DNA of 64,000 bases from NCBI GenBank assembly GCA_036265815.1, contig DATAOI010000022.1:62001-126000 (forward strand), read 5' to 3'. The DNA is from Gemmatimonadales bacterium. Its GTDB lineage: Bacteria; Gemmatimonadota; Gemmatimonadetes; Gemmatimonadales; GWC2-71-9. Shown here piece after piece: positions 3,189 through 62,094 of the stretch; positions within the stretch are counted from its first letter, which is position 1, and every line of letters starts with the position of its first letter. Position numbers and translations under genes: made by a program. Below the pieces are notes generated by a model that was given only the letters and a program-made list of their open reading frames with translations, did not search any database and was not told the origin of the DNA.

Positions 3189-5330
3189 GTGGTGGACGGC
3201 CTGTACATTACCCGCGTGACCGATCTACTCCGACCCACCCCCCGGGTCCTCCTCGACGATCTGCACGATCCATCGCTGTATCTGAACCGAGAGCTTTCCT
3301 GGCTCGAGTTCAATCGGCGCGTGCTCCATGAGGCCCTGGACTCCCGCACTCCATTGCTCGAGCGGCTCAAGTTTCTGGCCATCTTCAGCAGCAACCTGGA
3401 CGAGTTCTTCCAGGTCCGTGTCGCCGGCCTCAAGCAGCAGGTGGCGGCGGGGATCGTGGAGCGCACCGCCGATGGAATGACGCCGGAGGATCAGCTCCGC
3501 AGGATCTGCTCGGTGGTACGGGGGCTGGTCGACCAGCATCGACAGGCTCTGGAAGAAGAGGTCCTGCCCGCCCTCGCCACCCACGACCTCAGGCTGCACC
3601 AGAGCCTGGCCCAGCTGTCCCCGGCGGATCGGACCCACCTCGACACCTATTTCCATGCCAATGTCTTTCCGGTGCTGACGCCGCTGGCGGTGGATCCGGG
3701 GCACCCGTTTCCCTACATCTCCAATCTCAGCCTCTCGCTGGCCGTGGTGCTGCGGGGCAGCGACGGCGAAGAGCACTTCGCCCGGGTGAAGGTTCCGAAG
3801 ATCCTTCCCCGCTGGGTTCCGCTGCCCACCGCCAACCACTTCATCCCGCTCGAGGCGGTGATCAGCGCGAATCTCGAGGCGCTCTTCCCCGGCGTGGAGA
3901 TCCTGGGCTGCTACACCTTTCGCATCACCCGCAACACGGATCTGCAGATCGACAACGGCGATGAGGCCGAGGACCTGCTGAGCCTGATCCAGGAGGAGGT
4001 CCGCAACCGTCGTTTTGCCGAGGTGGTGCGCATCGAGGTGCACGCCTCCATGCCGCAATCACTGCGCGAGCTCCTGCTCATGGAGTTCAGTGAGCAGCAG
4101 GAGCCTCCCGCCCGGCCACTGACGCCGGAAGACATCTACGAGGTGCGGGGGCTGATCGACACGGCGGACCTGCTCTCACTCTCCACGCTCGACTTCCCCG
4201 CGCTCAAGGACCCGACCTTCCATCCCGCCACGCCCGCGCGGCTGGCGGGCGCGCGCAATATCTTCGACGTGATCCGGGAAGGCGACATCCTGCTGCATCA
4301 TCCCTACGACAGCTTCGCGAACACCGTCGAGCGCTTCATCCAGACCGCCGCGGAGGATCCGGACGTCCTGGCGATCAAGCTCACCCTCTATCGCACCGGA
4401 GGCGACTCGAGCATCGCGCGGCTGCTGGCCCAGGCCGCCGAGCGGGGGAAGCAGGTCGCCGTGCTCATCGAGCTGCAGGCCCGCTTCGACGAGGAGAACA
4501 ACATCATCTGGGCTCAGCGGCTGGAAGACGTCGGGGTCCACGTGAGTTACGGAGTGGCCGGGCTCAAGACCCACGCCAAGGTCATGCTGGTGGTCCGGCG
4601 CGAGGGGGACACGATGCGCCGGTACGTCCATACCGGTACCGGCAATTACAATCCCAAGACCGCGCGGCTCTATACCGACTTCGGCCTGCTCACCGCCAGC
4701 GCCGAGCTCGGCGCCGACCTCACCGACCTCTTCAACGTGCTGACAGGGTTCGCCTCGCCGGCGGGTTACCGGAAGCTGGTGGTGGCGCCACGAGGCATGC
4801 GGGAGCGGTTCCTGGAGATGATCGCTCGGGAGGTGGCGCACCGTCGGGCCGGGCGGCCGGCCCACATCATGGCGAAGATGAACGCGGTGGTGGACCCGGA
4901 CATCATCGCGGCCTTGTACGAGGCGTCACGGGCGCAGGTACCGATCGATCTGATCGTGCGGGGGATCTGCTGCCTCCGGCCGGGCCTCCCGGGCCTGAGC
5001 GAGACCATCCGGGTGATCAGCACCGTCGGCCGCTTTCTGGAGCACTCGCGGGCCTTCTACTTCCTCAATGGGGGGGACGAGGAGGTCTATATCGGCTCGG
5101 CCGATTGGATGCCACGCAACCTGGACCGCCGGATCGAGGCGGTGACCCCGATCGAGAATCCGGCGCACCGGCAAGCGCTGCGTGACCTGCTGCGGCTCAT
5201 GTGGCAGGACAACCGGCAGGCCTGGGAGCTCCGTTCGGACGGAAGCTACGAGCAGCGTCGCCCGCTGGAGGACGAGCCCGAGCGGGCGACCCACCGCGTG
5301 CTGCTCGAGCGCCTGCGTTCAGTAGGGTAG
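3189..5330 (+). CDS. ppk1: Polyphosphate kinase 1
   Basis: PPK1 reversibly polymerises the gamma-phosphate of ATP into polyphosphate. The 713-residue protein has the N-terminal domain with [14 protein letters not shown] and [16 protein letters not shown], a central head domain, and two phospholipase-D-like C-terminal domains. The motif GLKTHAK near residue 462 carries the histidine expected to be phosphorylated; HTGTGNYN follows, and [12 protein letters not shown] marks the second catalytic domain. Length matches the family. The GTG at 3189 is the first in-frame start; a second GTG at 3216 would remove nine residues. The final 12 bases overlap the 3' end of convergent dnaJ. No phosphate-regulation site was recognised in the 43-base gap upstream. 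Confidence 0.97.
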
Positions 5331-6419
5331 GCCCGCCGAATCGGCGAACTTCTTGAGCAGCTCCTGCTGCTCCGGAGTGAGCTCGCTGGGGAAGGTCACC
5401 TGAACCGCCACCAGCTGGTCGCCCCGCCGGCCATTCTTCTCGATCCCCTGCCCCTTGATCCGGAATTTCCGGCCCGGCTGAGTGCCCGGCGGGATCCGCA
5501 ACATCACCTTCTTGCCGTCCAGCGTTCGCACCCGAAGCCGGGTGCCAAGGGCTGCCTGCGCCATGTTGATCGGCACCTCGCAGACGATGTCGAGCCCCTC
5601 GCGATGGAAGAAGCGGTCCGACTGCACCTGAAAGGTGACCAGCAGATCTCCCGGCGGCGCACCGGGACGGCTGGTCTCGCCTTGTCCCCGGAGACGCACC
5701 CGGGAGCCGTCCTCGGTGCCCGGCGGCACGGTGATGACGATGCTGCGCTCGCTCCGGACCTCCCCCGCGCCGTGACAGGTGGGACACGGCTCCGAAGGGA
5801 TCCGCCCCCGGCCGCGGCATTGGGGACAGGGACGATTGACGGCGAATCCACCTTGACCGAACGAGATGGTTCCGCGGCCGTTGCACTCGGGACAGGTGGA
5901 CCAGGTGGCGCCCGGTGCACCGCCGCTCCCGGTGCAGGTGGGGCATGGCTCGGTGACCGACAACGTGACCGGGACCCGGCCTCCCAGCATCGCCACCCGG
6001 AAGGGTATCTCGACCATGGTCTCCAGCGCCTCGGCGCGTGGCTCTTCCCGGCGGCCCCGCCCGAAGATCGAGGAGAAGATGTCGCCCAGGCCGCCGAAAT
6101 CGCCGAATTCGATCCCGCCCGTGTCGACGTCTCCCGGTGAGGCGCCGCCCGATCGAGCGCCGGCACCCGCGCGAGGGCCCCGGGCCATCCCGTCGAACGC
6201 GCCGAGCCGGCGCATCTGATCGTACTGTTTCCGTTTCTCCGCGTCGGACAGCACGCTGTGCGCCTCGGAAATCTCCTTGAAGCGCTCGCTGGCCTTGGGG
6301 TTGTTCGGGTTGGCGTCCGGATGGTACTGCTTTGCCAGCCGCCGGTAGGCCTTCTTGATATCCGCCTGACTGGCGGAATCGGGAACTCCGAGGACCTGAT
6401 AGAAGTCCTTTGCCGCCAC
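5319..6419 (-). CDS. dnaJ: Chaperone protein DnaJ
   Basis: DnaJ delivers unfolded clients to DnaK and stimulates its ATPase. The 366-residue protein has a J domain (residues 4-70) with the essential HPD in KQYHPDANP, a short Gly-rich linker, and a zinc domain with four CxxCxGxG-type repeats ([35 protein letters not shown]). The C-terminal substrate-binding domain follows. It starts with GTG at 6419, one base after the grpE stop, so the two form an operon. dnaK is not in the window. The 3' end overlaps the convergent ppk1 end by 12 bases, leaving no room for a terminator between them. Confidence 0.97.
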
Positions 6420-6420
6420 G

Positions 6421-7014
6421 TTACGCCTGCCCCTGCTCGGAGTAGACCTGAACGCGCGCGGGGCGCACCAGCGTTCCTTTGAAGCGGTACCCGGCCTGGA
6501 AGGTGGCGCTCACCTGGTGATCCTCCGCCGGGGACGGCGGCGGCACCGTGGAGACGGCCTCGTGCAAGCTGGGATCAAAGGGTTTTCCGACCGGGTCGAT
6601 GCGCTCGAGCCCCGCGGCGGACAGCTCCTTGTCCAGCTTCCGGGTCACCAGCTCGATAGCGTGACGGAGCGCCTCCGGCGTGGCGTTGCCGGTGTCCCCA
6701 CTGAGGCGATCCATGTCGTCGAGCACGTCGAGCAGCCGGCTCACCAGACCGGCCTGGGCCCGGTCAGTCAGCTCGGCCCGCTCCCGTGCGATGCGCTTGC
6801 GGTAGTTGTCGAACTCAGCGGCAAGCCTCAGGTGTTGCTCGCGCACTCCCTCCAGCTGCGACTCCAGCCGCCGCACGGCCTCGGCCTGGGGCTCCATCGG
6901 CAGACCGCCGACACCCCCGCCGAAATCCGCTTGGCTCTCCTCCTGACGGGACGACGGGTCGGCTGACATGTCGGTCGAGGCCAGGTCGGCGCCATCGGCG
7001 CTGGGGCCTGTCAC
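6421..7014 (-). CDS. grpE: Nucleotide exchange factor GrpE
   Basis: GrpE releases ADP from DnaK. I place the start at the GTG at 7014, giving 197 residues, because an AGGGAGGA ribosome-binding sequence lies about eight bases upstream. The longer in-frame GTG at 7077 would add 21 basic residues atypical for GrpE. The acidic, disordered N-terminus is followed by a long coiled coil ([22 protein letters not shown]), then the [20 protein letters not shown] and [12 protein letters not shown] motifs of the beta-rich C-terminal domain. A consensus -10 hexamer lies about 85 bases upstream, so grpE-dnaJ can be transcribed apart from cinA. No CIRCE (HrcA) element was found. Confidence 0.95.
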
Positions 7015-7097
7015 AAGATCGTCCTCCCTCAATTTGTCCCTTCTAAGTCTTCGATTTTCAGTCACTTGCGCCCTCACCTCGGCAGAATGGTCAGGGG

Positions 7098-7103
7098 ATT
7101 ATA
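7098..7103 (-). promoter_or_regulatory. Candidate -10 box of the grpE-dnaJ promoter
   Basis: The minus strand reads TATAAT exactly, in the 73-base gap between the end of cinA and the grpE leader. A convincing -35 hexamer is not visible 16-18 bases upstream. A short inverted repeat, GCAC-N5-GTGC, lies immediately upstream of the hexamer and could bind a regulator. The perfect hexamer in otherwise GC-rich DNA and its position support a promoter; transcription has not been shown. Confidence 0.55.
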
Positions 7104-7150
7104 GCACCTCGCGTGCCATTGTGGGATGGCCAGAGTGGCAGGAAAAGCCG

Positions 7151-8407
7151 TCAGTGCGGAAGGGACTTGTAGAGCAGCGAGAGCGCCCCCTGTGCGGCCC
7201 GGGCCCGGATATCGTGTCGGCTTCCACCGAAAACCGACTTGCGCGTTTCGACCACGCCCCCCAGGGCTACGGCGAGCCATATGGTGCCGACCGGCTTCGA
7301 CTCGCTCCCGCCGCCAGGCCCGGCGATGCCGGTGACCGCGACGGCTGCGTCGATCCCCAGACGGGTCAGAGCACCGGTGGCCATGGCGCTGGCCACGGCC
7401 TCGCTGACCGCGCCCTCGGCCTGGATCAGCTCGGGCGGCACGCTCAGAAGCGAGGTCTTGAGGTCGTTGTGGTAGCAGACCACCGCACCCATGAAGACGT
7501 CCGAGCTGCCGGGCACTTCGGTCAACCGGCCGCCCACCAGCCCGCCGGTACAGGACTCGGCGGTGCCGAGCCGGAGCCGCTTGGCGCGGGCCCGGTCGAG
7601 CACCAGGGCGGCGAGATCGTCATCGTCTTCGCCGTAGATGACCCCCTCGGCGCGACTGCGAATAATGCCGGCGGCGCTGCGGAGCCGCTGCTGCGCCTCC
7701 TCGGGACCAAGCTGCCAGGCGCTGAGCCGAAGATCGACGCCGTCGAGGCCCGGGAGATATGCCAGCGTGAGGGGGGCGATCTCCCGCTCGATCTCACCCA
7801 TCCGCTCGGCCAGGGTCGACTCGGGGATGCCGGTAGTCCGGAGGGTGAGCGAGCGGATCACCGCACCGTCGCTCCGGCCGGCCAGCCGCGGCACGACCTC
7901 GTGCTGCAGCAGCATGCGCATCTCGAAGGGAACGCCGGGGAGCATGATGACGAGCCCCGTGCCTCGCGGGCTCTCCGCATAGGGGTGCTCGATCCAGAGT
8001 CCCGGCGCCGTGCCCCAGCGATTCCGCAAAACCGTGGCGCCCGCCGGCACTTCGGCTTGAGAGCGGTTGCTCGCGGCCGGAGTGCGCTGGAACCGCGCGT
8101 AGCGCGCCAGCACGTCGGCCCAGACGGTGTCGTCGAACTCGAGCGGCAGGTCCAGCAGCTCGGCCACCACCCGCTTGCTCATGTCGTCACGGGTCGGTCC
8201 CAGGCCTCCGGTGGTAAGCACCGCGCCGGTCCGGCCGAGCGCGGACTCGACAGCCTCCCGGATGTGGTCCGGACGGTCGGCTACCGCGGTGCGGCGGACG
8301 ATACGCGCGCCTTCCGCCGCAAGCGCCTGCGCGATCTCCGCGCCGTTGGTGTCGACCGTGAAGCCGAGCAGCAGCTCGGTACCAATGGTGACGAGCTCGA
8401 GGTCCAT
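7151..8407 (-). CDS. cinA: CinA: competence/damage-inducible protein A, NMN amidohydrolase type
   Basis: The 418-residue protein has both CinA domains. The N-terminal MoCF-like domain begins ELVTIGTELLLGFTVDTN and holds TTGGLGPTRDD. The C-terminal amidohydrolase domain has AESCTGGLV and the Gly-rich stretch VTGIAGPGGGSESKPVGT, which contain the catalytic residues of NMN deamidase. Known roles in the family are nicotinamide mononucleotide deamidation (pyridine nucleotide salvage) and ADP-ribose pyrophosphate hydrolysis; a direct competence role is not established generally. It begins at an ATG 24 bases after pgsA on the same strand and is the last gene before the separate grpE promoter. Confidence 0.93.
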   Translation of the reverse strand: MDLELVTIGTELLLGFTVDTNGAEIAQALAAEGARIVRRTAVADRPDHIREAVESALGRTGAVLTTGGLGPTRDDMSKRVVAELLDLPLEFDDTVWADVLARYARFQRTPAASNRSQAEVPAGATVLRNRWGTAPGLWIEHPYAESPRGTGLVIMLPGVPFEMRMLLQHEVVPRLAGRSDGAVIRSLTLRTTGIPESTLAERMGEIEREIAPLTLAYLPGLDGVDLRLSAWQLGPEEAQQRLRSAAGIIRSRAEGVIYGEDDDDLAALVLDRARAKRLRLGTAESCTGGLVGGRLTEVPGSSDVFMGAVVCYHNDLKTSLLSVPPELIQAEGAVSEAVASAMATGALTRLGIDAAVAVTGIAGPGGGSESKPVGTIWLAVALGGVVETRKSVFGGSRHDIRARAAQGALSLLYKSLPH

Positions 8408-8431
8408 GTTGGCGGCTGGCTCGACCGGAGG

Positions 8432-9070
8432 TTACCGCGCCCGATCGCTGAAGAGTCCGCGATTGCGGTAGAGGTAGAGCGCGAAGGAGTAGACGGTGAG
8501 CAGTGCGGCCACAGCGAGCGTCACCGCGACGAAGCCGCCGTGAAACTCGTTCCAGTAGCCGGCGAAGCGGCTATGCTCCCAGCCCATCGGCTTCCGGGCA
8601 TCCCGGAAGGCGAACCACAGAATCACAGCCCCGACGAAGATGTTCTGGATGGTGGTCTTGAGCTTCCCCGCCCCGGCGGCCGGGATCACTACGCCGCGGC
8701 GGCTGGCCCACCAGCGGAAGGCGGTCATCGCCACCTCGCGTCCGATGAGCAGCAGGCAGACCCAGAGCGGGATGCTGCCCCACAGCGGGATGTCGTAGAG
8801 GTCGTGGCGCTGGCGCGAGATCCAGTAGATCGGAATGAGGGTGGCGAAGAGCAGCAGCTTGTCGGCGATTGGGTCGAGCAGCTTGCCCAGGTCGGTGACC
8901 TGGTTGCGGGTTCGCGCGAGGTGGCCATCGTACACGTCACTCACCGCAGCGACCACGAAGACGATGAAGGCGATCAGCTTGGGCCAGTAGCCCTCGATGA
9001 AGGGGAGGAGGGCGATGACCGGCGTGAAGCAGATCCGCACCAGGGTGATGATGTTGGGCAGGGTCCACAT
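8432..9070 (-). CDS. pgsA: CDP-diacylglycerol-glycerol-3-phosphate 3-phosphatidyltransferase
   Basis: PgsA makes phosphatidylglycerophosphate, the committed step to phosphatidylglycerol and cardiolipin, in the inner membrane. The 212-residue protein carries the complete CDP-alcohol phosphotransferase signature (DxxDGxxAR, eight residues, GxxxDxxxD), visible as SDVYDGHLAR followed by LGKLLDPIAD. About five or six membrane segments follow the family pattern. The N-terminus MWTLPNIITLVRI is typical of PgsA. It starts nine bases after mglA and continues the same operon. Confidence 0.93.
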   Translation of the reverse strand: MWTLPNIITLVRICFTPVIALLPFIEGYWPKLIAFIVFVVAAVSDVYDGHLARTRNQVTDLGKLLDPIADKLLLFATLIPIYWISRQRHDLYDIPLWGSIPLWVCLLLIGREVAMTAFRWWASRRGVVIPAAGAGKLKTTIQNIFVGAVILWFAFRDARKPMGWEHSRFAGYWNEFHGGFVAVTLAVAALLTVYSFALYLYRNRGLFSDRAR

Positions 9071-58181: not shown

Positions 58182-59078
58182 CTAGGCGAGCGCGGTCACG
58201 TGCGCCAGCGCCCCATCAGCGAGGCGGGAGGGAACGTAGCCGCCCTCCAGCAGCCCGACGATCGGCGCGTGGGGCAGCCGCTCGCGAAGCCGCAGCGTCA
58301 GGTCGGCGTAATGTGCGGGCTCCAGGGTGAAGCCGCCGAGCGGATCGCCCCGCATAGAGTCGAAGCCGGCGGAGACGAGGACCAGCGCTGGGCTCCAGTC
58401 CTGGGTCGCGGCCTGGACGGCCGCCCAGAGATCGTCCACGTAGAGCGTCGGCGGCTTCCCGGGCCCGCGCGGAACGTTGAAGATGTTGCCCACTCCCCGC
58501 TCCTCCGCCATCCCGGTGCCAGGATACCACGGGTGCTGGTGCAGCGAGACATAGCGGACCGTCTCATCGGCCTGGACCAGCGCCTGAGTGCCGTTGCCGT
58601 GGTGCACGTCCCAATCCACGATCAGCACGCGGCGGTGGCCAGCCGCCTGCGCGTGCCGCGCAGCGACCACCACGTTGTTGGTGAGACAGAACCCCATGCC
58701 TCTGGCGGCCAGTGCATGATGGCCGGGCGGACGGATGGCGGCGAAGGCATTCCCTCGCCCGGCCAGGGCATGCTCCACCGCCGCGAGCGCGGCACCGGTG
58801 GCGCCAAGGACCGCAGCCCAGCTCGCATCGTTCAGAATGGTGTCGAGAAAGAGCGCACCGCCGCCCCGCGCGCTCATCGATTCGAGACTGCGAAGATAGT
58901 TGTCGGGATGAACGGCGAGGAGTGCCTCACGGGGCCCCGGCGCGGCCTCGATTACATGGACGGCGGAGCGGCTCCGGAGCGCGGAGAGCAGCACGTTGAG
59001 TCGGGCGGGCGTCTCCGGGTGGTCGGGGCCGGGGTCGTGCCGCAGACAGTCCGGGTGCGTGAAGACGCGAATGGGCAC
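58182..59078 (-). CDS. Histone-deacetylase-family hydrolase (AcuC/APAH type)
   Basis: This 298-residue zinc amidohydrolase has the full HDAC active site: HPETPARL, IRPPGHHA (His120-His121), DWDVHHGNGTQ (Asp157, His159 as zinc ligands), SAGFDSMRGDPLGG (Asp240) and the catalytic Tyr in LEGGY. Bacterial members act on acetylpolyamines, acetoin-pathway enzymes or acetyl-lysine. It lies 14 bases after the ubiquitin-fold gene on the same strand, so the two may be co-transcribed. Confidence 0.92.
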   Translation of the reverse strand: MPIRVFTHPDCLRHDPGPDHPETPARLNVLLSALRSRSAVHVIEAAPGPREALLAVHPDNYLRSLESMSARGGGALFLDTILNDASWAAVLGATGAALAAVEHALAGRGNAFAAIRPPGHHALAARGMGFCLTNNVVVAARHAQAAGHRRVLIVDWDVHHGNGTQALVQADETVRYVSLHQHPWYPGTGMAEERGVGNIFNVPRGPGKPPTLYVDDLWAAVQAATQDWSPALVLVSAGFDSMRGDPLGGFTLEPAHYADLTLRLRERLPHAPIVGLLEGGYVPSRLADGALAHVTALA

Positions 59079-59092
59079 CCGGGGTGCTCCCG

Positions 59093-59353
59093 CTAGCGAA
59101 CCGGCTGCCGGCGGCGGCGAAGCACGATCAGCGCCCCGTTGGGCACCAGCCCCGCCTCGGCCAATGAGCGCGACTCGTCCTCCAACTCGGCACCGCGGAA
59201 CTTGAGGAGGTACGCGTCCGGATTGCCGATGACCCGGGTGGCCTGAAGCGCCTGCCGCTTCACTTCGGCCAGCGGCGTGGAGGCCGGGAGATCGAGCCGC
59301 ACCTGGTCCCAGGCATCCTGGACCATGACGCGCAGCGGGATGACCGCGCTCAC
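59093..59353 (-). CDS. Ubiquitin-fold (YukD-like beta-grasp) small protein
   Basis: The 86-residue product shows a ubiquitin-type pattern: a first beta hairpin (LRVMVQDAWDQVRLDLP), an amphipathic helix (LAEVKRQALQA), a strand (YLLKFRGAELEDE, cf. IFAGKQLEDG in ubiquitin), a short SLAEAGLVPNG turn (cf. TLSDYNIQKES) and a final strand ALIVLRRRR. It ends in QPVR, not GG, so it is not an obvious conjugation modifier. YukD-type proteins occur in type VII secretion operons, but no EssC or WXG100 gene is in the window. ATG overlaps the stop of the 90-residue partner. Fold is inferred from sequence pattern alone. Confidence 0.7.
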   Translation of the reverse strand: MSAVIPLRVMVQDAWDQVRLDLPASTPLAEVKRQALQATRVIGNPDAYLLKFRGAELEDESRSLAEAGLVPNGALIVLRRRRQPVR

Positions 59354-59622
59354 GCCACGGTCTCCGAGGGCGCGGGCAGCGTGGAGAGGAACCGGTCGAC
59401 CTGCTGGTCGAACAGCAGAGTCGAGGCGCGCACCCGGGTCCCGTCCCCCGAGGCCATCACCGCGATCGCGATCTCCTCCCCGCCCTGGCCGCGCAGCGTC
59501 AGGTAAGTGGGCCCCTCCTTCTCCGGAAATGCGGCCTGCATCGGGATCCGCTCCCCGAAGAACCGCTTGGCCCGGCGAAGCACCTCCGCGCCGTCCAGCG
59601 TCGTGACGACCTGGTACACCAT
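59350..59622 (-). CDS. Small protein paired with the ubiquitin-fold gene, unknown
   Basis: This 90-residue protein has an N-terminal helix with LRRAKRFFGERIPMQA, then beta strands (PTYLTLRGQGG, EIAIAVMASG, TRVRASTLLF) and a C-terminal helix, a compact alpha/beta domain a little like a truncated START/SRPBCC fold. No catalytic residues stand out. Its ATG lies eight bases after the beta-propeller stop and its TGA overlaps the ATG of the ubiquitin-fold gene, so the two are translationally coupled. Confidence 0.7.
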   Translation of the reverse strand: MVYQVVTTLDGAEVLRRAKRFFGERIPMQAAFPEKEGPTYLTLRGQGGEEIAIAVMASGDGTRVRASTLLFDQQVDRFLSTLPAPSETVA

Positions 59623-59630
59623 GGCGAGAC

Positions 59631-60707
59631 TCAGTGGGTTGAGGTTTGCTGGCCCACGGAGCGGATGGCGATCCCCGTCGGCTGGCCCGGTACCGCGATG
59701 CTGGAGATCAGCCTGCGGGAGGCAAGGTCGATGACGTCCACCGCCCCGGGATCGGCGCCGATCGATTCGCAGGACACGTACGCCAGCCGTCCGTCGGGCG
59801 AGAAGGCCACGCCGTGCACGACCTTCTTGCTGGTGGAAATCCGGGCCAGCTCGGTCAGGCCGACGGCGTCAACCAGGCTCACGCTCTGGTCCTTCTTGTT
59901 GGTGACGATCACCAGCTTGCCGTCGGGCGACGGCTCCACGTTGTAGGCGCCCTTCCCCAGCGGGATCTCCTTCGTCCGGGTGAGCGTGGCCGCATCCCAG
60001 ACCTGCAGGCTGTTGCCGTAATTACAGGCGACGTAGAGCCGGCGGTCGTCCGGTGAGACCGACACGAACGTGGGCGCGCATTCCATCGACATGCCCGCCA
60101 TCGCGTGGGGCCCTCCGGTTGCGGCCCGCCGGGTGATGGCGAAGGTGCCCACCTGGAGCTCCAGGATCTCGTCACTGTGCATGCAGGAGAGATAGACCCG
60201 AGTGCCCGCATGATTCACCTTCACCCCGTGCGGCATATCGCAGGACGGGAGGTCGGTGATCTTGGTCATGGTGGGGAGATGAACCACCGAGACGACGTTG
60301 ACCCGGGGATGATCCCCGTGGAAGTCGGAGTTGGCCACGAAGGCGAACTGGCCGTCGGGCGTGAGCCCGATGGTGGTGGGAAAGAGCTCGACTTCGGCGC
60401 GGCCAAGGAGCGTGTCCCCCGCCACGTCGAGCTTCCAGAGCGAGCCGAATGGCGTGCCGTGCGCGATGGTGACGTAGTAGCTCTTCTGATCGCGCGAGAC
60501 CGCGAGGTTGTGCGGACCGTCGTTGTCGGACGGCATGAGGCCGACCGGCACCACATGATCGCGCGCCAGCCCTCCCGCCACCGGCTTGAGCCAGGTGACG
60601 AGGTCGGCGGATTCACTCACCACGCCGACCCGGTAGCCCGGGTCCGCACTCTGGGCCTGCGCTGCTCCGGCGAGCCCAAGGCTCGCCACCGCCAGCCGGC
60701 GAATCAC
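59631..60707 (-). CDS. Secreted YVTN-type beta-propeller protein
   Basis: The GTG at 60707 with GGAAAGGA upstream gives 358 residues with a signal peptide (RLAVASLGLAGAAQAQ). The mature part is a seven-bladed-type propeller; repeats contain GLTPDGQFAFVANS, SVSPDDRRLYVACNYG and AFSPDGRLAYVSCES. Such proteins bind surface ligands or act as scaffolds; no enzymatic residues are evident. It begins 58 bases after glyS and leads into the ubiquitin-fold pair. Confidence 0.88.
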   Translation of the reverse strand: MIRRLAVASLGLAGAAQAQSADPGYRVGVVSESADLVTWLKPVAGGLARDHVVPVGLMPSDNDGPHNLAVSRDQKSYYVTIAHGTPFGSLWKLDVAGDTLLGRAEVELFPTTIGLTPDGQFAFVANSDFHGDHPRVNVVSVVHLPTMTKITDLPSCDMPHGVKVNHAGTRVYLSCMHSDEILELQVGTFAITRRAATGGPHAMAGMSMECAPTFVSVSPDDRRLYVACNYGNSLQVWDAATLTRTKEIPLGKGAYNVEPSPDGKLVIVTNKKDQSVSLVDAVGLTELARISTSKKVVHGVAFSPDGRLAYVSCESIGADPGAVDVIDLASRRLISSIAVPGQPTGIAIRSVGQQTSTH

Positions 60708-60765
60708 TGCGAGGGTCCTTTCCGCGACGAGCGGGGAAGATAACCTGGCGGCACTCCCCGCTGGC

Positions 60766-62094
60766 TCAGAGGCGCGCCGCCAGGTACTCCGCCACCTGGT
60801 CCAGACCCACCCGCTCCTGTTGCATCGAATCGCGATGACGCACGGTGACTGTCCGGGCGCTGGTCGTCTCACCATCCACCGTAATGCCGAACGGGGTACC
60901 CGCCTCGTCCATTCGACGGTAGCGCCGGCCGATCGCGCCGCTGTCGTCGTAGAAACAGGGGAACCGGCGCTTGAGCCCGTGATAGAGCTCGGTGGCCAGC
61001 TCCGGCATTCCATCCTTTTTCACCAGCGGAAAGACGCCCGCCTTGATCGGGGCGACCGCGGGGTGAAGACCGAGCACCACACGGGTCTCTCCTTCCACCT
61101 GCTCCTCACGGTAGGCATCCACCAGCAGGGTCAGCGCCACCCGGTCGGCCCCGGCGGAGGTCTCGACGATGTTGGGGAGGTAGCGCTGGTTGGCCGCCTG
61201 GTCGAAGTACTCCAGCTTCTTGCCGGAGAACTCCTGGTGCCGGCCGAGATCGAAGTCCCCCCGGTTGTGGACCCCTTCGATCTCCTGCCAGCCGAAGGGA
61301 AACTCGTACTGCACGTCGTACGCGGCCCGGGCGTAGTGCGCCAGCTCGGTGGCGTCGTGCTGGTGCCACTGCAGCTTGGCGGGGGTGAGTCCGAGCGCCT
61401 GATGCCACTCCATGCGCCAGGCGCGCCACCGCTCGAACCACTCGGCGTCGGTGCCCGGCTGCACGAAGAACTGCATCTCCATCTGCTCGAACTCGCGGGT
61501 GCGGAAGATGAAGTTCCCCGGGGTGATCTCGTTGCGGAACGCCTTGCCGATCTGGGCGATGCCGAAGGGCACCTTCTGCCGTGAGCTCTGCAGGACGTTG
61601 AGATAGTTGACGTAGATCCCCTGGGCGGTCTCCGGCCTCAGATACACCACGGCCGCCTGCTCCTCCACCGGCCCCATGAAGGTCTTGAACATGAGATTGA
61701 AGAGCCGCGGCTCGGTGAGCGTCCCCTTGTTGCCGCAGACGGGGCACTGGGCATCGGGCTGACCCGGGGTGCCTTTGATGCGCGGGTCGTCCGCGCGGAA
61801 GCGGGTCTTGCAATGGCGGCAGTCGACCAGCGGGTCGGTGAATCCGGCCACGTGACCGGATGCCTCCCACACCCGGGGATGCATCAGGATGGCGGCATCC
61901 AGCCCTTCGATGTCGTCGCGGGCATGCACCATGGCGTCCCACCAGCGATCCTTGACGTTCTTCTTGAGCTCGACGCCCAGCGGCCCGTAATCCCAGACCG
62001 ACCCCAGCCCGCCGTAGATCTCGGAGGACTGGAAGACGAATCCGCGGCGCTTGCAGAGGGAGACCAGCTTGTCCATCAGGGCGGTATCGGCCAT
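60766..62094 (-). CDS. glyS: Glycyl-tRNA synthetase, homodimeric type
   Basis: This 442-residue class II synthetase is the alpha2 type rather than the alpha2-beta2 type. It starts [19 protein letters not shown] and has the [18 protein letters not shown] active-site region, a zinc-like [16 protein letters not shown] module, motif 2 near [20 protein letters not shown] and motif 3 near [10 protein letters not shown]. The anticodon-binding domain closes the protein. ATG at 62094; no T-box leader was seen. The 279-base gap upstream contains GATAAT (62288-62293) and other AT-rich bases suited to divergent promoters. Confidence 0.96.

Follow-up and report, generated by a model that had tools for sequence, protein, structure and literature searches.

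What does a standalone ubiquitin-fold protein do in a member of the Gemmatimonadales, and does it act together with the orphan protein whose gene overlaps its own? The question is raised by two genes on the minus strand of the window, by which we mean the whole 64,000-nucleotide stretch of DNA that was analysed. The downstream gene (59093..59353) starts with GTG and encodes an 86-residue ubiquitin-fold (beta-grasp) protein with the tail RRRRQPVR, referred to below as UBL. The upstream gene (59350..59622) encodes a 90-residue protein, P90, which carries an RGQGGEE motif and has a predicted beta-alpha-beta4-alpha fold like those of TBP, KA1 and Bet v1. A first-pass annotation, made from the letters of the window, had placed both reading frames here with the start of UBL overlapping the stop of P90, and the sequence confirms this: the GTG of UBL (59353-59351) shares bases with the TGA of P90 (59352-59350) in a 4-nt overlap, GTGA (59350..59353), which is identical in 57 of 80 related loci and implies that translation of the two genes is probably coupled. 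Both are established as genes that are translated and under selection, since synonymous change is well above non-synonymous change in orthologues of 63-77% protein identity (at one of them, L062, dS is 1.04 and dN 0.18 for P90, and dS is 1.10 and dN 0.17 for UBL).

Conservation of the pair was followed by profile searches of whole genomes, with one profile per protein, in 297 genomes of the phylum; the order Gemmatimonadales comprises families f1-f3 (171 genomes), and its counts were tallied from the phylum-wide tables. Of the 297 phylum genomes, 202 have P90 and 180 have UBL, and within the order the numbers are 165 and 157 of 171, or about 92-96% of the genomes searched. A profile scan of genome contigs, from which 80 Gemmatimonadales loci were kept (all of them Gemmatimonadota), finds P90 and UBL adjacent in 80 of 80, with a maximum separation of 68 nt. 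The first-pass annotation had staked its reading on the pair staying together in related genomes, and these genome counts and the uniform adjacency bear it out. Beyond the order, P90 lies upstream of UBL at all 18 UBL loci scanned in family f7 and at both of those in f9, where the P90 sequences are divergent (E 1e-8 to 1e-2). Adjacency is thereby held across five families (f1, f2, f3, f7 and f9) as all other neighbours change, from GlyS, HDAC and PriA genes to a GAF-like protein and MoxR, to SerA, BtuF and MoeZ, or to a helicase-like gene. Because these surroundings differ completely between families, the pair is the sole constant.

The two genes also occur apart. Genus g41 has kept P90, RGQGGEE motif included, despite the loss of UBL, and supplies 9 of the 14 order genomes that lack UBL; at locus L190 the P90 gene directly abuts an HDAC gene and UBL is gone. 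P90 is present without UBL in families f4 and f5, and UBL is present without P90 in one genome (G030). At two of the f4/f5 loci (L191, ~7001-8999; L192, ~4000-6067) the gene immediately after P90 encodes a divergent DEAD-helicase-like protein with a nucleotide-binding motif that looks altered.

At the locus in the window the pair is flanked on the same strand by a gene for a beta-propeller protein, probably exported and with its start not resolved (59631..60800, 8 nt upstream of P90), and by a gene for a 298-residue HDAC-type amidohydrolase (58182..59078, 14 nt after UBL). The latter matches Pfam PF00850 (Hist_deacetyl) at E 7.9e-74, and its catalytic motifs (RPPGHHA, DWDVHHGNGT, SAGFD and EGGY) are intact in the translation. 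Because the successive gaps are 8, -4 and 14 nt, we infer that propeller, P90, UBL and HDAC form one transcription unit. Both neighbours had been noted at these positions from the letters, and both are there, the HDAC gene by its Pfam match; as a setting for the pair they fare differently. The HDAC gene lies downstream of UBL in 74 of the 80 Gemmatimonadales loci, whereas the propeller, recognised in just 30, is an optional neighbour and was dropped as a partner. Linkage of the HDAC gene to the pair is missing in f7 and f9; it is a frequent third member within the Gemmatimonadales only, an order-level trait.

The usual block in the 80 loci reads GlyS-(propeller)-P90-UBL-HDAC-(enolase-superfamily epimerase)-PriA. 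In family f2 the gene before P90 encodes a GAF-like protein of ~445 residues and the one after UBL is HDAC or MoxR, these types being judged by eye from translations; Gemmatimonadaceae-type loci of this kind (L195, L196, L197, L198, L189 and L190) have the GAF-like gene just 5' of P90, and several have MoxR/DUF58-like genes downstream. In f7 and f9 the pair has SerA, BtuF and MoeZ genes around it at some loci, and genes for a short-chain dehydrogenase and a helicase-like protein next to it at others.

Structure prediction provides further insights into both proteins. The AlphaFold model of UBL, built from 55 sequences, is a ubiquitin beta-grasp with a pLDDT of 86.6 and predicted elements E4-11, E16-23, H28-38, E48-52, E55-57 and E73-79, so the model has the strand and helix order of the ubiquitin-like beta-grasp superfold. 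Foldseek matches it to 988 PDB chains at E <= 0.001 (ubiquitin, ISG15 and SUMO among them), and the TM score against ubiquitin and ISG15 is ~0.8. The best row given by VIA-align 2 is the bacterial BilA Ubl (8tyx_A; Z 13.7, rmsd 1.7, 80 residues), and numerous other ubiquitin-fold entries trail it by no more than 1 to 1.5 Z. With the sequence profile alone, E is 8e-6 for a ubiquitin-like protein and ~3e-5 for single ubiquitin domains. A ubiquitin fold had been read from the letters, and it is now backed by predicted structure, fold comparison and profile match to ubiquitin chains. The best Pfam family is YukD, below threshold (E 0.0018; 19.4 bits against a curated cut-off of 27; best family member 3.6e-5), and PF10790 (DUF2604) gives weak matches to 20 UBL members. 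Weak matches to TmoB-like monooxygenase subunits occur in 4 members; no monooxygenase genes were noticed nearby, and this candidate was rejected.

The P90 model (pLDDT 93.2) is arranged as strand-helix-four strands-helix. Its best fold match is the KA1 domain 2zfd_B (Z 9.7, rmsd 1.9 over 80 residues; Foldseek E 0.007), a modest match of a predicted model that carries no functional information. Bet v1/START-like proteins, phosphoglucomutase C-terminal domains and DUF302 follow, all of which, together with KA1, we take to have the SCOP TBP-like fold; one SCOP fold class holds Bet v1, KA1 and TBP. The Rv2186c cyclase (Z 9.0, rmsd 4.2) and Aha1 (Z 7.8) show a related arrangement, which is not decisive for a Bet v1/START-type fold. 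By sequence, P90 comes closest in the PDB to a haloalkane dehalogenase (E 0.28 over 25 residues), which we regard as a chance match. Neither P90 nor UBL has an above-cut-off family in Pfam, NCBIfam, PHROGs or PADLOC, and a full-text literature search for Gemmatimonadetes and ubiquitin-like returned no paper treating the pair by title. None of these databases thus has an above-cut-off entry for the UBL family, for P90 as its partner or for the pair as found across the order. The fold of UBL is known, and standalone proteins with a ubiquitin fold have been described in bacteria before.

Is the pair part of one of the known bacterial settings of this fold? The first-pass annotation had held that the window contains no type VII secretion, E1 or JAB gene and that the pair fits neither secretion nor Bil-type conjugation, and the searches for WXG100, E1 and JAB uphold both statements. 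WXG100 genes are absent from 26 genomes of the order, the window's own included, and the same search found the B. subtilis protein used as a control. The only ThiF/E1-like gene of the source genome is fused to a CysO-like domain and lies on another contig (C47), where the sole above-cut-off JAB gene (Mec-like) adjoins this fusion and a CysM-like gene; E1 and JAB are therefore encoded outside the window. The three genes stand in a row (L200:6030-8823: CysM-like, Mec-like JAB, CysO-MoeZ fusion) as a compact sulfur-carrier cysteine cluster. The other JAB-model match in the genome is weak and may be RadC, which is our guess. No E2-like enzyme was recognised among the neighbours examined.

The C-terminus of UBL bears on the same question. 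In 80 of 80 Gemmatimonadales loci UBL ends exactly two residues past one alignment column; that column is P in 75, the last residue is R in 64, and the Arg two columns before the P is invariant, giving a tail of the form RRxPVR. C-terminal Gly-Gly occurs in none of these 80 proteins. An end so fixed in length and so conserved suggests that the C-terminus itself is used, in the Gemmatimonadales by something other than standard E1 chemistry. All UBLs examined from f7 and f9 have a stretch rich in aromatic residues followed by a terminal Gly, as in HYPRFEG and HYPPFRG. One f7 protein (L222; UBL from 1145, plus strand) has the Gly-Gly end HYRAFGG, its relatives having a single Gly.

P90 has paralogues beside another ubiquitin-fold protein. 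Families f6, f7 and f9 have a block reading CarA-(SppA)-HU-P90-MoaD-MoaE-MoaA, with a P90 paralogue as the gene immediately before MoaD. Of 14 loci with this paralogue, 13 show the arrangement, and in 12 of them the two genes are within 125 nt of each other; MoaD-linked copies are found at L168, L170, L174, L176, L177, L179, L181-L185 and L187. The MoaD proteins of these loci carry a C-terminal Gly-Gly. Gemmatimonadales have CarA-HU-MoaD-MoaE-MoaA in the same order without P90 (L205, L209 and L216), and in the tree their P90 groups with the MoaD-linked copies (support 94/86). It is tempting to propose that P90 exchanged MoaD for UBL as its ubiquitin-fold partner; this is only suggested, as a lead, because the AU test does not reject a single UBL-linked P90 clade (p 0.351) and so leaves it standing. 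At one locus (L172, ~7500-7880) P90 is kept and MoaD, MoaE and MoaA were not seen; there it adjoins a small charged helical protein (MTYEERQ..) that is found near moaA in relatives too. A second, long-branched P90 copy in f6 (L188:6669-7115; genome G306, contig C59) lies off the Moa locus, near ABC transporter genes. Because P90 sometimes persists without UBL or MoaD, its pairing with UBL is not obligate, and its retention without UBL in g41, f4 and f5, and once after MoaD loss at L172, points to some partner-independent role.

A plausible explanation of these observations, to which we give an even chance, is that P90 and UBL join non-covalently into a heterodimer that acts as adaptor or regulator and that, in the Gemmatimonadales, is probably connected with the deacetylase. 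In this model the overlapping genes would allow P90 and UBL to be made at matched levels as a two-protein module, and P90, with its predicted TBP-like (KA1/Bet v1-like) fold, would most likely bind UBL in the cytoplasm. UBL would be used non-covalently, the Gemmatimonadales protein lacking Gly-Gly and having neither an E1 or JAB protease linked to it nor a secretion machine. The heterodimer would then serve as adaptor or regulator of a housekeeping process, which in this order probably involves the deacetylase encoded by the neighbouring gene. A competing view is that P90 and UBL are separate housekeeping proteins that only share an operon. In its favour, either gene can stand alone (P90 in g41, f4 and f5; UBL in G030), but we think it on balance unlikely in view of adjacency across five families despite changing neighbours, an arrangement repeated with MoaD. 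A bolder and rather doubtful extension of the heterodimer is that P90 is the founding member of a family of small proteins with a TBP-like fold, each dedicated as chaperone or docking factor to a ubiquitin-fold partner (UBL here, MoaD elsewhere), and that a copy which left the Moa operon in the Gemmatimonadales now serves UBL.

That UBL is instead a covalent modifier or sulfur carrier, activated by the single MoeZ-type E1 of the genome and processed by the JAB protease encoded elsewhere, we consider improbable. The genome does hold one ThiF/E1-CysO-like fusion with a true JAB alongside, an f7 UBL locus lies near a MoeZ/CysO cluster (L175, adjoining BtuF and MoeZ genes), f7 UBLs end in Gly and that of L222 in Gly-Gly, and BilA Ubl is the top fold row. 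However, the tail is PVR or similar at all 80 Gemmatimonadales loci and never Gly-Gly, most f7 and f9 UBLs have a single Gly, and the E1/JAB cluster already has its own CysO and CysM-like partners and is unlinked to UBL in the order. A role as a YukD/EsaB-type component of a secretion apparatus is largely refuted: YukD is the best Pfam match, albeit sub-threshold even for the best member, but the 26 order genomes have no WXG100 and no secretion ATPase was recognised among the neighbours. A toxin-antitoxin pair is scarcely credible either. Two small overlapping genes would fit such a pair, and ratA-rnfH was once so labelled (PMC11988751); the present pair, however, is single copy and near-universal, each gene has been lost alone in some lineages, neither has a PADLOC or PHROG match, and later work explained RatA toxicity itself by a start codon that had been mis-annotated (PMC11988751).

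We know of few standalone bacterial ubiquitin-fold proteins outside sulfur transfer, type VII secretion and conjugation (RnfH and TmoB). A nameless pair that is near-universal in its order, recurs in sister families and has a MoaD-linked paralogue is thus a tractable case, which could show what ubiquitin folds do without conjugation and how general TBP-like-fold partners are. Comparison with known systems places it as follows. YukD/EsaB is likewise a standalone bacterial ubiquitin fold and the best sub-threshold Pfam match, but UBL falls below the curated YukD score and occurs in genomes without WXG100 genes; the contrast also draws on the aureus work in PMC5845737. Bil-type conjugation supplies the top solved fold, whereas UBL has no linked E1 or JAB deconjugase and, in the Gemmatimonadales, no Gly-Gly. 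The sulfur carriers MoaD, ThiS and CysO share the superfold, and MoaD has a P90 paralogue ahead of it in three families of the class, but Gemmatimonadales UBLs do not have the C-terminal Gly-Gly of the local MoaD proteins.

In layout and predicted folds the closest precedent is ratA-rnfH of proteobacteria (ratAB, pasTI), a documented pair (PMC1779556, PMC11988751) in which a START-fold gene is followed by an overlapping ubiquitin-fold gene. START/RnfH is a conserved gene neighbourhood (PMC1779556), and RatA/PasT is now regarded as a Coq10-like ubiquinone chaperone (PMC11988751). The E. coli genes stand in the order of P90 and UBL and share 11 nt. They differ in that RatA has 158 residues against the 90 of P90, and in that no SmpB neighbour was seen at our pair. 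With hhalign neither the P90 profile against E. coli RatA nor UBL against E. coli RnfH gives an alignment, P90 has no polyketide-cyclase Pfam match, and RnfH (PF03658) has no match at E <= 0.1 in the 26 genomes. Because no sequence relation to RatA or RnfH was detected, we propose that P90-UBL may work like ratA-rnfH without being a member of it. If P90 is indeed a dedicated partner of ubiquitin-fold proteins, its pairs and ratA-rnfH would together make up a kind of two-protein module that recurs and in which ubiquitin folds are put to use without conjugation.
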